Shown: positions 9,157 to 17,508 of the stretch, piece by piece
How the letters are laid out: every line of letters begins with the position of its first letter
Numbering within the stretch: position 1 is the first letter of the stretch
Source of the DNA: a virus
Length of the DNA: 27,837 nt
Strand: one strand, 5' to 3'
IMG/VR virus record: IMGVR_UViG_3300035670_001041
Location: 1-27,837 of that record
The notes under the pieces: generated by a model
The model's database searches: none
What the model was told of the DNA's origin: nothing
The model's input: only the letters and a program-made list of their open reading frames with translations
Translations under genes and position numbers: made by a program

Positions 9157-9681
9157 TTATATTAATTCAAATTCTTCGTTTAAAAAATCGGTATAATCAT
9201 CGCCTACCGATTGGCGGATTCTTTCTTTGCAAGATTTTATAGTTAAGAAGATAGACTTTAAACTGATACCAGTCTCATCGGATATTTGGCGCATTGGTTT
9301 TCTTTCGTCTTTATATATCCTGAATAACTTTTGGTCGTACCAATCCCAACTACTAATCTCATTTTCTACTCTGTCGTAAATGTTCTCTAATGATTCGTGT
9401 TTGAGTAGCTCTAACTCCTCTTGTGCTAAATCTCTTACTACCTCAATAGATAAGTCATTAGATGCAGTTTTGTTGGCTTTGTAGGTAGTGTTTCGCAGTA
9501 GTATCCACATCAATGCACGGTTAGGTTCTCCGTCTATTACTATTTTTTCGTAGTAATTGTACTGATGGACTTTCAGGTACACATCTTGTACGATGTCTTC
9601 AGCAAACTCGTTATCACCAAATAAACGGACTATATTTAGCCACTCCTTGTGATATTTAGATAAGATAGTTAGTGCGTTCAT
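9157..9681 (-). CDS. Sigma-70-family (ECF-like) RNA polymerase sigma factor
   Basis: 174 residues. Region 2 is visible at about 22-41 (GDNEFAEDIVQDVYLKVHQY), where the AEDIVQDVxxKV pattern is the core-binding helix of ECF sigma factors. Region 4 helix-turn-helix is at about 128-157 (PMRQISDETGISLKSIFLTI). The linker contains Trp- and Leu-rich helices. It is the first gene after a strong terminator and lies just downstream of a TATATTTG -7 element. Placed at the head of the packaging and tail operon, it could direct host RNA polymerase to late promoters. An alternative is a DNA-binding protein that has lost core binding. Confidence 0.8.
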   Translation of the reverse strand: MNALTILSKYHKEWLNIVRLFGDNEFAEDIVQDVYLKVHQYNYYEKIVIDGEPNRALMWILLRNTTYKANKTASNDLSIEVVRDLAQEELELLKHESLENIYDRVENEISSWDWYDQKLFRIYKDERKPMRQISDETGISLKSIFLTIKSCKERIRQSVGDDYTDFLNEEFELI

Positions 9682-11438: not shown

Positions 11439-11834
11439 AGTTTCTTGAACCATATGTAAAGCGAGTGTCATATACTGCTTGACTTGTTCGTCCGTATTTT
11501 TATCGCTATCCCATCCTCCTAAATCTTGAATATGTTGGAATGTATCGCAACCCGAACATGAACCATAGCTAACTTCTGTAAAAATATAGTCATCTAAATT
11601 AGGTTGATAGCAATCATTGCAAAGTATAAAAATCCTATTACCTTGCCAATCGCCATCGTCAATAATTTCGAAGCGTTCCCAGTCCCAAGAATCATTGTAG
11701 CTATTCGGTTGAGTTACTACCAATTCAAATAGCTTTTTATAAATATCATCGTAATTACTTGGTTGGGTTTCTTTCAACCATTCTTCTAATAGGTGCTTAC
11801 GCTCATCCCATTGTTTTACAAATTCTTTTATCAT
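11412..11834 (-). CDS. Conserved phage protein with YGSCSGCD motif, unknown
   Basis: 140 residues. N-terminal helix with MIKEFVKQWDERKHLLEEWL. The middle contains Trp/Asp-rich strands (YNDSWDWERFEIIDDGDWQG) and a Cys pattern: LCNDCYQP and YGSCSGCDTFQHIQ. The SCSGCDTF loop is recognisable in other phage hypothetical proteins. The four closely placed Cys suggest a zinc site, though no known enzyme is recognised. First gene of the five-gene QEQ series, preceded by a 43-base gap. Confidence 0.7.
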   Translation of the reverse strand: MIKEFVKQWDERKHLLEEWLKETQPSNYDDIYKKLFELVVTQPNSYNDSWDWERFEIIDDGDWQGNRIFILCNDCYQPNLDDYIFTEVSYGSCSGCDTFQHIQDLGGWDSDKNTDEQVKQYMTLALHMVQETKTFKQQEQ

Positions 11835-12090: not shown

Positions 12091-12767
12091 AGGAATTGAA
12101 TTAAGGCGTTATAATACTCACGGCAAAGCTCTATCTTTTCTTTGATTTGCTCAATGACTGCTTCGTCTTTTTGTACGTAGAATACTTTTACTCTGCGGTT
12201 TTTAGGCACTTGGCTAAATTCGTGTTTGCGTAGAATCTCCTCACGTAAGTCGTAGTCCTCGTCAATCTTGTGCAGTTTCCAATGCGCTCTGCGAATCTCG
12301 TCCTCTACCATATCAATCGGAGTGTCTACAAGGCAGTAACAAAGCATTGACTGCTGCTTGCCAGTTAGCCACATATAACCCTGTAGCTGATAGAAGTAGT
12401 CTTTGTTAGGTATTTCGGTGTCAAAAAACGGAAACGTAGTAGCATCCCAAGAGCTTTTTACGTCAAGCAATACATCCTCCGTGTTTACGTCAGGTGTTCC
12501 TTTGATATAATCGTTCTCGAAATACTGCTCGTTCTTGTAGATAAAGTTTACGTCTAACACATCATTAACAAGCGAGATAGATAAATCCTCAACTGCGTTC
12601 CCTTTGTCTGTGTAACGGCTTGAAAACTCCTTACGGATACCGTATTTCTCTTCTAACACAAGTTCGTGGATGTAAGTTTTAGCCGTTTGGCTTAGTAATT
12701 CGCCTCTAGAGCGCGAGTTCGCCATTATTTTTCCTATGGCAGAACATCGAATCTTGAGAGCTTTCAT
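12087..12767 (-). CDS. YqaJ/lambda-exonuclease-like recombination nuclease
   Basis: 226 residues. It degrades double-stranded DNA ends to expose single strands for annealing. Visible PD-(D/E)XK elements: an early helix with Glu in the GNAVEDLSISLV segment; the GTPDV turn at about residue 90-94; LLDVKSSW, supplying the D-x-K pair; and YFYQLQGYMWLTG, the QxxxY motif typical of exonuclease/RecB-like nucleases. It directly follows and overlaps the ERF gene (4 bases), the classic two-component annealing recombination pair. N-terminal MKALKIRCSAIGKIM resembles the start of YqaJ-domain proteins. Confidence 0.85.
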   Translation of the reverse strand: MKALKIRCSAIGKIMANSRSRGELLSQTAKTYIHELVLEEKYGIRKEFSSRYTDKGNAVEDLSISLVNDVLDVNFIYKNEQYFENDYIKGTPDVNTEDVLLDVKSSWDATTFPFFDTEIPNKDYFYQLQGYMWLTGKQQSMLCYCLVDTPIDMVEDEIRRAHWKLHKIDEDYDLREEILRKHEFSQVPKNRRVKVFYVQKDEAVIEQIKEKIELCREYYNALIQFL

Positions 12768-13291
12768 AGGGCGTTAAGCATATCAATTTGACCATCAGTT
12801 AACGCAAAGGATGATTCGAGTTTCTCTCGTGTGTATTCACCTTTGGCGATGGCTTGTACTGCTGCGCTGAATCGCTTTTGGTCAATTTCAGGCAGTTTCT
12901 TCTCCGTCTTTGAGTTGTCTTTAGAGTCAGGGTCGGATTCCGTCTCGTCAATTAAGAATAAACCATTGAGAGCGTACTTACGAGCGTAGCTTGATGCCGT
13001 GCCAGTACATTGCTCCGATGACATTCCTTTGTGTTCTCCAAGCTCTGCAAATCCATAAGTCCTAACATTCTTACCATCAGCATCTCCAACGCTTGCAGTA
13101 GCCTTTAAAAATAGTTTGCTTCCTACCTCTACAATCTCATCAGTCAAGATTAATAATAAACCGTGTTTTTGTAGCAATGGCTTAACTGATTCAAGAATCT
13201 GCTCTGCACTTCTGTACTTGTACTTTCCAAATGAATTGTACGAACCTTTTGGGCATTTTAGTTCTGCCTGAACTTTAAATAAATTTTCCAT
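12764..13291 (-). CDS. erf: ERF-family single-strand annealing recombinase
   Basis: 175 residues. MENLFKVQAELKCPKGSYNS, then GKYKYRSAEQILESVKPLLQKHG, the signature N-terminal region of ERF proteins. Downstream are TDEIVEVGSKLFLKATASV and the conserved SSEQCTGTASSYARKYALNGLF (split here as two motifs). Residues 120-175 form an acidic linker and a small C-terminal helical domain. It anneals complementary single strands for recombination or genome circularisation. Pairs with the adjacent exonuclease. The ATG lies in the ACGCTATG context shared by four early genes and follows copy A of the duplicated intergenic element. Confidence 0.92.
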   Translation of the reverse strand: MENLFKVQAELKCPKGSYNSFGKYKYRSAEQILESVKPLLQKHGLLLILTDEIVEVGSKLFLKATASVGDADGKNVRTYGFAELGEHKGMSSEQCTGTASSYARKYALNGLFLIDETESDPDSKDNSKTEKKLPEIDQKRFSAAVQAIAKGEYTREKLESSFALTDGQIDMLNAL

Positions 13292-15228: not shown

Positions 15229-16173
15229 TTAAAAAGGGTTTTGATTTGCAAGTCTACGAAGTTTCTCTGAGGTAGTTTCTATTTGTCCGTCTTTTGGTAT
15301 CGTCATCTGCTTCTCGCTTGGTCGGAAAGGTGCTAAAGGGTCTACTCCGTTTATTTGGAATCCGATTCCTGAATTAAAGTTGCAGTAGACTGGCTCATTT
15401 AATGCCGTGTGCTTGCCTCCTGTCTCCGTATCTTTAACTTTCTCTACTCCTACCCAAGTTATCAGCTTCATTGTTTCGTGTTTAATTAGGCGGTGTATTA
15501 CAAACATATCATCGCATCGATTTAAGAAAGCCTTACCGCCCTCAATGTGGTCTTTAAGTGGTGGCTTCAAATGTCCTTTCCATTCTCCGTCTTGGTATAA
15601 GTTACCTGTTCTACCTGATTCAGTATTCGGATGGGTGTTTATGTAGATGGTCATTCCCGTTTGATTAACAAACTGCCTCGCTCGGTTCATAAATTCGTAA
15701 TTACCTGCAAAGCTCATCTCTCGGTCTAAACCTGTAAATGGGTCTATCAATCCAACATTTGCTCCACTCTGCTTGAATAGTTCGAGTATGTCATCAGGTT
15801 TGTAGAGTTTCGAGTTATCAATAAACGTAAAGAACTGCTCTAAGTACGCAAGGTCTCCGCTTATTTGAGAGTGGCTTAATTTACTAAAGTGCTTGCCTCG
15901 GTACATTTGAATCATATCTCTAAGAATTTGACCTTTCTGATTCTCGCCTGACCATATGCAGAACGTTAGTCCGTGTTTAAGTGCAAGCGTAAGAAAATAC
16001 CAGTTTATCCAATACGTCTTACCAACGTTATCGTGTCCTAAAATGATGTTTAGTTGCTTAGGCTTGAATCTTAAATGTTCATCTAAAAAGCAGTCAAGTC
16101 CAAGTCCTTGTTTGATTTTACCATCTCGCACATCCAATAGGTATTGTAGTGAGTCTCCTTGTTTCGTTAGCAT
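15229..16173 (-). CDS. DnaB-like RecA-fold replicative helicase
   Basis: 314 residues. Walker A GHDNVGKT at 46-53, Walker B GLID at 141-144, and a later H4-like region (KAFLNRCDDMFVIHRLI). A nucleotide-sensing motif appears in TIYINTHPNTES (about 170-181). It corresponds to the C-terminal RecA domain of DnaB. The N-terminal domain that binds primase in full-length DnaB (about 450 residues) is absent, so it probably relies on the host primase through another contact. It lies between the DnaD-like organiser and a coiled-coil protein. Confidence 0.85.
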   Translation of the reverse strand: MLTKQGDSLQYLLDVRDGKIKQGLGLDCFLDEHLRFKPKQLNIILGHDNVGKTYWINWYFLTLALKHGLTFCIWSGENQKGQILRDMIQMYRGKHFSKLSHSQISGDLAYLEQFFTFIDNSKLYKPDDILELFKQSGANVGLIDPFTGLDREMSFAGNYEFMNRARQFVNQTGMTIYINTHPNTESGRTGNLYQDGEWKGHLKPPLKDHIEGGKAFLNRCDDMFVIHRLIKHETMKLITWVGVEKVKDTETGGKHTALNEPVYCNFNSGIGFQINGVDPLAPFRPSEKQMTIPKDGQIETTSEKLRRLANQNPF

Positions 16174-16796
16174 AGTCCTAATTTTCGTGCTAATAGTAAT
16201 TCTTTAGGCTCTTCAACTTGATTAGATTTAGATTTATCTTCCCAAGTTCTAACCGCAGCTTTCCAATCCTTCATTTTGTTTTTACCCACCATCCATCCTT
16301 TTGATTCATAGAAGTCAAAAAACTTTTGCGAATCTACGTTATTATTTCTTTCCTGACAATAATCCGATACTTCTTGAAGTGAAGGTACTATAAATAACAT
16401 TCTTTCTTTCTTATCATTCTTGTTTGTTGTTAGTTGTTTGTTAGTCGTTTGTTGATTGTTTGTTAGTGGCTTGTTAGCCTCATCGTTTTCATCTTGGTAA
16501 CATTCATATTTACAAATAGTTACGATAGTAAATTGGCTTGTTGATTTTAGTTCAATTTCGTTTGTCTTTTCCAACTTTTTTAAAATGGTTCTAATCGTTT
16601 GAATTGAGATACCAGTAGCGTTAGAAATGTTACCTAAAGACGAAATGAACTGACCTCGTTTTACTTCAATGCCTTGCCATTTACCATTCTTGTGATTAGC
16701 TTTTAAAAGCATATAAATAAACAAGTGTACTGTTTCCGATTTATTGAACCATTCCCACTCTAAAAACTTGCGATGTATTTTAATCCAACCGCTCAT
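16167..16796 (-). CDS. DnaD-like/replisome organiser-type winged-helix protein
   Basis: 209 residues. The start MSGWIKIHRKFLEWEWFNKS followed by LFIYMLLKANHKNGKWQGIE, then VKRGQFISSLGNISNATGIS, is the typical N-terminal winged helix of phage replication organisers in Bacteroidota elements (HTH at about 48-78). A Gln/Asn/Thr/Lys linker (about 108-125) is low-complexity. A C-terminal domain (about 130-200) contains YCQERNNNVDSQKFFDFYES and WKAAVRTWEDK, the DnaD-like YxxxGW...W..A...W motif. It probably remodels the origin and loads the helicase encoded next. Confidence 0.85.
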   Translation of the reverse strand: MSGWIKIHRKFLEWEWFNKSETVHLFIYMLLKANHKNGKWQGIEVKRGQFISSLGNISNATGISIQTIRTILKKLEKTNEIELKSTSQFTIVTICKYECYQDENDEANKPLTNNQQTTNKQLTTNKNDKKERMLFIVPSLQEVSDYCQERNNNVDSQKFFDFYESKGWMVGKNKMKDWKAAVRTWEDKSKSNQVEEPKELLLARKLGLC

Positions 16797-16964
16797 TTAT
16801 TCAACATTTAAATGAGATTGTAAAAAGTTTTTTAACGACTCCGCTTCTTCCAATGTCAAAATAATATTTTGCAAACCATTTGATGAAATTTCCATATACA
16901 AACCTTTTTCACAAAAATTAACTTCTAAAGTGTCATTTTTACTTTCAATTTTAAATACAATCAT
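16797..16964 (-). CDS. Small protein downstream of structured RNA
   Basis: 55 residues from ATG at 16964: MIVFKIESKNDTLEVNFCEK, then a beta strand and a helix (LTLEEAESLKNFLQSHLNVE). The reading frame stays open upstream to an ATG at 17075, but that stretch folds as a compact RNA and encodes a peptide without the composition of its neighbours, so I use the inner ATG. Its stop abuts the organiser gene. No function recognised. It is the first gene after a terminator-like hairpin and so would respond to attenuation. Confidence 0.6.
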   Translation of the reverse strand: MIVFKIESKNDTLEVNFCEKGLYMEISSNGLQNIILTLEEAESLKNFLQSHLNVE

Positions 16965-16983: not shown

Positions 16984-17073
16984 AAAAAAACCCTCGCAAA
17001 TCCGTAGGCTCTCACATCTACTTCATTACAAGGGTTAATAATACCTTTAGGTTCTATGGTGTGAGAGCGAACC
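16984..17073 (-). ncRNA. Structured RNA with complementary hairpin loops and terminator
   Basis: About 90 bases. Hairpin 1 has arms GGTTC (17069-17073) and GAACC (17050-17054) with a 14-base loop. Downstream, an outer stem AACCCTTG (17029-17036) pairs with CGAGGGTT (16989-16996). Inside it a small stem GTAG/CTAC closes a 10-base loop (17008-17017). The two loops contain GCTCTCACA and TGTGAGAGC, perfect complements over 9 bases, so a kissing interaction or pseudoknot is likely. A run of T follows the outer stem (16984-16988), as in an intrinsic terminator. A -7 element ends 5 bases upstream of hairpin 1. It is either a small RNA or an attenuator leader for the replication genes. I cannot match it to a named family. 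Confidence 0.6.
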
Positions 17074-17078
17074 ATTCA

Positions 17079-17102
17079 CAAATATAACGTATAACTTTCA
17101 AA
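17079..17102 (-). promoter_or_regulatory. Candidate promoter for the structured RNA
   Basis: TATATTTG (-7 element) at 17079-17086 on the minus strand, the same octamer as in two other promoters of the window. The -33 match is poor: a TTTG is only 12 bases away and nothing good stands at 19. Transcription would start close to 17073, the first base of hairpin 1. Confidence 0.4.
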
Positions 17103-17508
17103 AAGGTTGCATCGGCTCTAAACTTTTTTCGTATTTACCTAATTTTATGTGTCTTTGAATCTTTTTAAACTGGCTATAAGTCTTCGCTTTGAGTACGTCT
17201 TTTGCTAAATCAGGTGCGTCATCGTAGTAAGGAAGCGTAGCACCGTGTAAGACGTCATCTATTTGCTTAGTAGCTATCTTGTAGTCTTCGTATCCAAACC
17301 GATGCAAGTCTTCGTGTTGCCGTAGTCCGTGAATAATTGTAGCGTGATGCTTGCCACCAAACATTTTACCTATCTCGTCTAATGAGAATCCCAAAACACG
17401 GAGTTCATTATAAAGGTAGTAACGCTTGTATATGTACTCTCTGCTTCGGTTCTTTGACCATAACTTATTCTTTTCTATAATCTCTTGTATGAGTTCTACT
17501 TTGGTCAT
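17098..17508 (-). CDS. DnaA domain IV-like DNA-binding protein
   Basis: 136 residues. Residues about 28-72 (RYYLYNELRVLGFSLDEIGK, then MFGGKHHATIIHGLRQHEDL) closely follow the DnaA DNA-binding domain. FGGKHHATIIHG aligns with the GGRDHTTVLHA signature that contacts DnaA boxes. There is no AAA+ ATPase domain (DnaA is about 450 residues), so this is a free DNA-binding module. The rest is a helical, basic C-terminal half (TYSQFKKIQRHIKLGKYEKS). Directly upstream of the replication genes, it may mark the phage origin, recruit or divert the host initiator, or repress. Recognition of the domain is good; the role is inferred. Confidence 0.78.
   Translation of the reverse strand: MTKVELIQEIIEKNKLWSKNRSREYIYKRYYLYNELRVLGFSLDEIGKMFGGKHHATIIHGLRQHEDLHRFGYEDYKIATKQIDDVLHGATLPYYDDAPDLAKDVLKAKTYSQFKKIQRHIKLGKYEKSLEPMQPF

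Follow-up and report, generated by a model that had tools for sequence, protein, structure and literature searches.

The 27,837-nucleotide (nt) stretch of viral DNA analysed here (the window) carries on its minus strand, at positions 17086 to 16984, a compact element consisting of a promoter, a 5′ hairpin and a terminator hairpin, in which the loops of the two hairpins are complementary over 9 nt. Judging from its sequence and its homologues, the element represents a real, previously undescribed RNA family and a putative kind of phage antisense control. Compensatory change keeps the sense loop, in the 5′ hairpin (SL1), complementary to the antisense loop, in the terminator hairpin, and the loop alleles are replaced far faster than the flanking genes. 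These allele-matched loops suggest an RNA switch that would give self-regulation without cross-talk from relatives. We see about an even chance that the element produces a phage RNA of ~91 nt, with its own promoter and terminator, which forms the leader of the replication operon and regulates phage replication as a self-specific antisense RNA.

The promoter, both hairpins and the T run all lie on the same strand. The promoter −7 element TATATTTG (17079–17086) fits the Bacteroidota consensus TANNTTTG, in which the last G occupies position −5 (PMC6847099), so that the start site is expected near 17074, one base before SL1. The TATATTTG box is present in 37 of the 52 distinct elements tallied, and the remainder have near variants. 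SL1 (17050–17073) is closed by GGTTC (17073–17069) and GAACC (17054–17050), and its sequence places the sense loop GCTCTCACA at 17068–17060. An AU-rich linker, TAAAGGTATTATT (17037–17049), which the alignments indicate to be single-stranded, leads to an intrinsic terminator hairpin (16989–17036), defined by sequence, fold and covariation. The terminator comprises an outer stem of 11 pairs (AACCCTTGTAA, 17036–17026, with TTGCGAGGGTT, 16999–16989) and an inner stem of four pairs (GTAG, 17021–17018, with CTAC, 17007–17004), separated by a TGAA/GGAT internal loop (17025–17022 and 17003–17000). Its 10-nt loop contains the antisense sequence TGTGAGAGC (17008–17016), a perfect complement of the SL1 loop, and a run of seven T (16984–16990) marks the expected 3′ end of the RNA, giving a predicted length of ~91 nt from 17074 to the T run. 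A sequence-only reading had described this promoter, the GGTTC/GAACC and GTAG/CTAC hairpins, the 9-base complement, the terminator and the T run, packed into about 100 bases; all of these are present on the minus strand, and both the sequence and the homologues confirm the arrangement. The internal loop (UGAA/GGAU in the RNA) is conserved in class A (alignment A4, columns ~60–64 and 84–87; classes are defined below) and also occurs in the contig L221; it could form tandem G-A pairs and is a possible bend or protein-binding site.

The element stands among replication genes, all on the minus strand. Immediately downstream is a 55-codon gene (16797–16964), whose Pfam match to a T4 y05I-like domain is weak and falls below the cut-off, followed by a gene for a DnaD-like helicase loader or replication initiation protein (16167–16796; PHROG 2514, E = 7.5e-29), which occupies the position of the class B target in relatives, and by the replicative helicase gene of the same operon (15229–16173; PHROG primase/helicase families, E ~1e-18). 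Directly upstream lies a gene for a protein with a DnaA C-terminal domain (17098–17508; Pfam PF08299, E = 1.7e-9), and a DnaA-like gene likewise lies a short way upstream of the element in Polaribacter phage P12002L and of the second element in Tenacibaculum phage Gundel_1. The location ahead of replication genes, pointed out in the earlier reading, is held in every homologue examined in this phage group.

When the operon's helicase was used to scan IMG/VR, 80 loci were recovered (~79–99% identity), and an element of the same plan was found in 65 of the 65 loci having more than 1 kb of upstream sequence. The elements form two classes: class A, to which the window's element belongs, combines a 5-bp SL1 with an 8-nt core loop–loop match, and class B has a 3–4-bp SL1 and 6–7-nt loops. 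In the alignments, the linker motif is kept as AAGGNATTATT in class A and ACATTATT in class B, and in every homologue the terminator stands between the promoter and the operon. Covariance model R1 (class A) recovered 41 members at E ≤ 2e-7 and model R2 (class B) 34 matches at E ≤ 4e-7, and DNA-pattern scans independent of the helicase found at least 119 class A stretches and 14 of class B. All 21 large contigs with a match have a single class A element; two contigs, L022 and L069, have two elements each.

Searches of host genomes and databases gave little beyond these phages. Model R1 had no matches in 399 Flavobacteriales genomes, an empty large-scan result that counts as weak negative evidence, and the genome collection scanned with the helicase gave no match. 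Three weak R2 matches in Flavobacteriales genomes were rejected, two (L093 and L095) as ordinary operon terminators without matched loops and one (L094) as mispaired in the model alignment. Distant blastn matches to Olleya, Streptococcus, Staphylococcus and Prevotella phages were short, AT-rich T-run matches, and those checked were non-homologues. For the window and six related loci, no Rfam family matched the element at its gathering score, in agreement with the earlier statement that no named family has this layout; OmrA-B, sca_ncR27 and rdlD reached E values of 1.5–6.4, far under their gathering scores. Our literature search found no description of this RNA.

Relatives do occur in cultured phages, usually upstream of a replication gene. 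Gundel_1 has two elements: the first (GCTCTCAC/GTGAGAGC) precedes an antirepressor gene, and the second (GTAGGATTC/GAATCCTAC), found by eye and then folded, is flanked by a DnaA-like gene and a replication protein gene. In Polaribacter phages P12002L and P12002S, the element (GGTCGTAG/CTACGACC) is directly 5′ of a replication protein gene, two genes after a DnaA-like gene. The mumin group of Flavobacterium phages has one (GTCGTCG/CGACGAC) before an endonuclease gene, at 11666–11769 of MN812220 in mumin6-1; these phages are without lysogeny genes (PMC7077304), and the RNA is thus not tied to prophage maintenance. The antirepressor context recurs once, in the 53.7-kb IMG/VR contig L221, where the following gene was called an AntA-type antirepressor from its sequence, not by a family search. 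A distant relative (GTAGCTC/GAGCTAC) was found on a contig of a Flavobacteriales metagenome-assembled genome.

The decisive support for the matched-loop structure is comparative. Folding of the single sequence predicts the terminator and the inner hairpin, with SL1 weak (z = −1.4), so single-sequence energy is insufficient as proof and the homologues have to decide. A perfect 9-nt complement at the same distance arose in 152 of 20,000 Markov-shuffled copies of the region (~0.8%), and GCTCTCACA has no further occurrence within the whole window. When 29 distinct class A homologues are aligned, the structure is paired in 96.4% of cells and 22 of the 29 pairs show two-sided changes; the covariation score is 0.789, compared with 0.236 in shuffles (reached in 0 of 500) and at most 0.106 in slid registers. 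Stem by stem, the values are as follows: SL1 (100% of cells paired; two-sided changes at four of five pairs), the outer terminator stem (99%; 8 of 11) and the inner terminator stem (100%; four of four). The loop–loop helix alone scores 0.699 against 0.223 when shuffled, again with slid registers at or below 0.106. Its eight core pairs are kept in 29 of 29 distinct elements, with one G-U, and six of the eight have changed on both sides, which are the compensatory changes in both loops that the earlier reading had named as support. Loops that varied without keeping complementarity would have spoken against the fold; we found the opposite, loops that vary and stay complementary. In class B, 99.4% of loop–loop cells are paired and four of seven pairs are doubly changed; this alignment is less exact than that of class A, which lowers the SL1 count there. 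Alignment was guided by the nested stems, and neither covariance model included the loop–loop helix. Loop complementarity was required in the first collection of elements and dropped from the later pattern scans, in which all class A members among the matches listed have it. A peptide read from 17075 was rejected: any frame is open through the RNA in only 25 of 86 distinct class A elements, and the frame is not conserved.

The variable loop occurs as discrete, exactly matched versions and not as drift. Class A has at least 13 alleles, each with an exactly matching second loop: GCTCTCAC (that of the window), GGCTCGAC, CATCCTAC, CCTTCGAC, GGCTGGAC, CATCCGAC, GGTCTCAC, GAGTCTCA, GGTTCGAC, CATCTCAC, CGTCTCAC, TCTCTCAC and CCTCTCAC. 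Class B alleles are GTTGCAG, GTCGCAG, GAAGCAG, GTGCAG, AGGCAG and GAGCAG, and relatives elsewhere add GTTACGG, GTCGTAG, GGTCGTAG, GTCGTCG, GTAGCTC and GTAGGATTC, so that at least 20 matched-loop versions exist in total. In calculated duplexes, cognate class A loops pair at −10 to −15 kcal/mol and foreign ones at a mean of −3.8, making the alleles mostly mutually non-pairing; for class B the values are −8 to −10.5 and −5.2 kcal/mol, and discrimination is lower among these alleles, all of which end in GCAG.

These alleles turn over rapidly. Phage pairs with helicases 97–99% identical have an allele in common in only 18% of cases, and below 95% identity sharing is at chance level (8% versus 8.9%). 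Two loci, L057 and L058, encode identical helicase proteins and carry elements of different classes. Among pairs with an upstream flank of 120 nt that is at least 90% identical, the allele differs in 31 of 52, indicating that the RNA itself is exchanged as a cassette. Diversifying selection is the likely cause of this turnover but not the sole reading, because these phages are generally mosaic and the ERF gene swaps types too.

A third copy of the loop points to a target in class B, where the SL1 loop sequence is repeated just before the start codon of the replication initiator, in the phage's own allele (for example, GTTGCAG-ATG, GTCGCAG-AATG, AAGCAGTAAAATG and GAGCAGTTAAATG). Start-region reading and the start-codon test combined place this copy at 31 of 32 class B elements, the exception being the second element of L022, before an HNH gene; the automated test alone found it at 21 loci, against 1.4 expected from foreign alleles. 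In five loci (L011, L013, L014, L015 and L044), an insertion of ~1.8 kb separates the RNA from the initiator gene and the copy remains at the initiator ATG; it therefore belongs to the initiator mRNA and not to the RNA cassette. The class B antisense loop pairs with its own downstream region at a calculated −8.7 kcal/mol, compared with −6.3 for foreign alleles. Flavobacteria do not use Shine–Dalgarno pairing and tune initiation by structure at the start codon (PMC6847099), and a duplex there should thus hinder translation. The 55-residue gene, one of the targets proposed by the earlier reading, is not a fixed one: the gene adjoining the element differs widely between phages, and the class B target stays the initiator despite the 1.8-kb insertion.

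Class A is divided in this respect. Most CCTTCGAC elements have a third copy too (CTTCGAC before ATG), and the window's GCTCTCAC and the other class A alleles have none beside the next gene. A genome-wide search of 29 phage genomes found no second targets for class A (own 8-mers, none seen where 3.3 sense and 2.2 antisense occurrences were expected; 7-mers, 29 seen and 34.8 expected). Antisense action on another mRNA is thus unsupported for the window itself, as for class A generally except most CCTTCGAC elements. The absence of the own 8-nt loop elsewhere in the genome (0 versus ~5.5 expected from foreign alleles on both strands) hints at avoidance, in small numbers. The antirepressor genes behind the Gundel_1 and L221 elements have no third copy. 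Two matches at gene starts were discarded as coincidences: an exonuclease gene start (ATGAAAGCTCTCAAG, window ~12767), since phages of nearly every other allele have the same start, and GGCTGGA at an MSGWIK start in L033, since L053 has GGCTGG there with another allele. In P12002L (L230), a second structured stretch (TCGTAGC...GCTACGA, 13089–13160), after a T run and upstream of an HNH gene, holds GTCGTAG of that phage's own loop and could be a target or unrelated.

A self-specific antisense regulator would accommodate these observations as follows. As phage genomes multiply, the terminated RNA would accumulate, and its antisense loop would bind the sense loop of newly made transcripts in trans; in class B it would also bind at the start codon of the initiator. 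The replication genes would then be read through or translated less. The RNA's own sense loop may act as a built-in decoy or competitor that buffers the antisense loop and sets a threshold. Allele-specific pairing would confine this regulation to the phage itself and leave unrelated phages in the same cell unaffected, a self-only regulation that would resemble heteroimmunity or plasmid incompatibility groups. With no second genomic target for GCTCTCAC, the class A effect should run through the loop–loop pairing itself, and its lever would probably be termination, set by contact within one transcript as opposed to contact with another RNA copy. Genes for replication proteins and for antirepressors, the two contexts of the element, are both well-known targets of antisense RNAs in phages and plasmids (PMC12197685; PMC4981023).

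The sequence-only reading had offered a small phage RNA or an attenuator. The compact RNA with promoter and terminator stands, and the third copy, the discrete alleles, the occurrence in cultured phages and the antirepressor neighbours shift the explanation from a simple attenuator towards the self-specific antisense regulator. The layout of an intrinsic-terminator attenuator is nevertheless there, with a promoter followed by a terminator hairpin and U run before the first gene. A regulator acting in cis only, in which co-transcriptional loop–loop contact sets the frequency with which polymerase enters the replication operon, perhaps in response to polymerase speed or to a protein of phage or host, would fit with the terminator separating promoter from operon in every homologue, with the 29 class A genomes in which no other target was found and with intramolecular pairing that is always kept. 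It leaves unexplained, however, the allele-matched third copy at the class B initiator start codon and the fast turnover of specificity, as a purely internal contact needs no new partner sequence; we therefore hold it to be rather unlikely. The more specific proposal that loop contact switches the terminator is not established: neither folds nor alignments contain a conserved competing stem that would give a mutually exclusive antiterminator, and the loop–loop pairing spares the terminator stem, so that the two can in principle coexist, which counts against a demonstrated switch.

The own promoter and terminator would also suit a free-standing small RNA that targets host RNAs or a host protein, with the kissing loops giving only a compact, stable fold and the operon being merely a convenient site, and the conserved unpaired linker (AAGGNATTATT or ACATTATT) and the UGAA/GGAU loop could then bind protein. 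We judge this improbable, given the class B third copy, the association with replication initiator or antirepressor genes in unrelated phages, and the wholesale swapping of loops between phages with near-identical helicases, which would not be expected of loops that target the host. Two helices joined by a loop–loop contact upstream of a terminator and operon recall a ligand-binding riboswitch with a structural kissing loop, as in purine riboswitches, controlling the replication operon; but no Rfam riboswitch matches, and helices and loops vary almost throughout, with no pocket-like set of conserved unpaired residues outside the linker and the 4 × 4 internal loop, making such a riboswitch very unlikely. 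Hardly any weight falls on pairing at the DNA level, as an origin of replication or an inverted repeat that binds a protein, next to the DnaA-like gene: the DnaA-domain and DnaD-like neighbours would suit it, whereas the constant place and orientation of the promoter, the T run that always ends the hairpin on the same strand and the G-U pairs used in the terminator stem are signs of RNA, and the antirepressor element of Gundel_1 is far from that phage's replication genes.

The C4 RNAs of P1/P7 and P22-like phages (RF01695) have the order a1b1/a2b2. On our best reading, the element would work like C4 or like plasmid copy-control RNAs while belonging to neither. It resembles C4 in having its antisense sequence within the proposed target's own transcription unit, complementary sequences in loops, and the class B order of sense copy, antisense and sense copy at the start codon. 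C4 targets the antirepressor start region; the element precedes antirepressors in Gundel_1 and L221, there without a third copy, and a replication initiator in the window's group. A loop complementary to the downstream gene start, a C4-like trait, is found for 31 of 32 class B elements and most CCTTCGAC elements and is absent for the window's allele. The element differs from C4 in its fold, with the sense copy being a hairpin loop within the same small RNA and the antisense lying in the terminator hairpin, in its probable main target, the replication initiator, and in occurring in phages of Bacteroidota, some of them virulent. The C4 model RF01695 had no gathering-score match in the window and six related loci and was absent among matches up to E = 10. 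C4 represses antirepressor synthesis, and allele differences underlie P1/P7 heteroimmunity (PMC12197685); the c4-a1b1 motif has been catalogued (PMC2864571).

Likenesses to other systems extend to plasmids. Proposed negative control of replication through allele-specific kissing loops would be common to the element and the plasmid copy-control RNAs. Those RNAs (pIP501 RNAIII and ColE1 RNAI/RNAII) use kissing loops of ~7 nt and show allele-specific incompatibility. Plasmid antisense RNAs, however, are made from the opposite strand, whereas a single promoter of the element serves one RNA that carries both the sense and the antisense loop. For pIP501 RNAIII, the mode of action is attenuation within the rep leader (PMC4981023). 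In the Salmonella Gifsy-1 prophage, IsrK likewise has one promoter for a short terminated small RNA and a read-through mRNA, the short form acting in trans on the long one (PMC4825925). Unlike the proposed element, IsrK stimulates target translation and leads to the antiterminator AntQ, its host belongs to another phylum, and matched-loop alleles have not been described for it. The CI immunity RNA of phage P4 is a small leader RNA that pairs with sense copies in the same leader and ends transcription of the replication genes. Compared from this description, it shares with the element the small leader RNA, the sense copies in the same leader and the replication genes, but it acts in an enterobacterial satellite; comparison of its sequence and structure with the element was confined to Rfam.

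To our knowledge, phage-encoded regulatory RNAs are hardly known in Bacteroidota phages, to which the present element adds a strongly covarying, undescribed RNA family. A further-reaching interpretation, which we advance tentatively, is self-recognition among flavobacterial phages: at least 20 largely orthogonal alleles, selected to be diverse and swapped as cassettes, would control the initiator, so that phages of the same allele interfere and those of different alleles do not. If true, this would amount to heteroimmunity or incompatibility groups without a repressor protein, in phages some of which are virulent. The cultured mumin, P12002L/S and Gundel_1 phages would be a testable case of how phages could count their own genomes and ignore those of relatives, without an obvious repressor, and the natural, near-orthogonal kissing-loop pairs could supply ready components for RNA-based regulation in a phylum that has few genetic tools.

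Other genes of the window and its relatives deserve mention. A sigma-factor-like phage gene lies at 9157–9681 on the minus strand (PHROG 1740, E = 7e-7), and Nonlabens phage P12024S, with a related portal protein, likewise has a sigma-70 region 2 gene before the terminase. The ERF recombinase gene (12764–13291, minus strand; same position in L006–L085) exists in clearly distinct types despite near-identical helicases, with ~80–99% or 30–46% identity to the window's ERF. HNH-type endonuclease genes recur directly 3′ of the RNA (L114, L122, L182, L022, L069 and mumin6-1, L226 4100–4579), and in several CCTTCGAC elements the endonuclease start codon is still preceded by the third loop copy.
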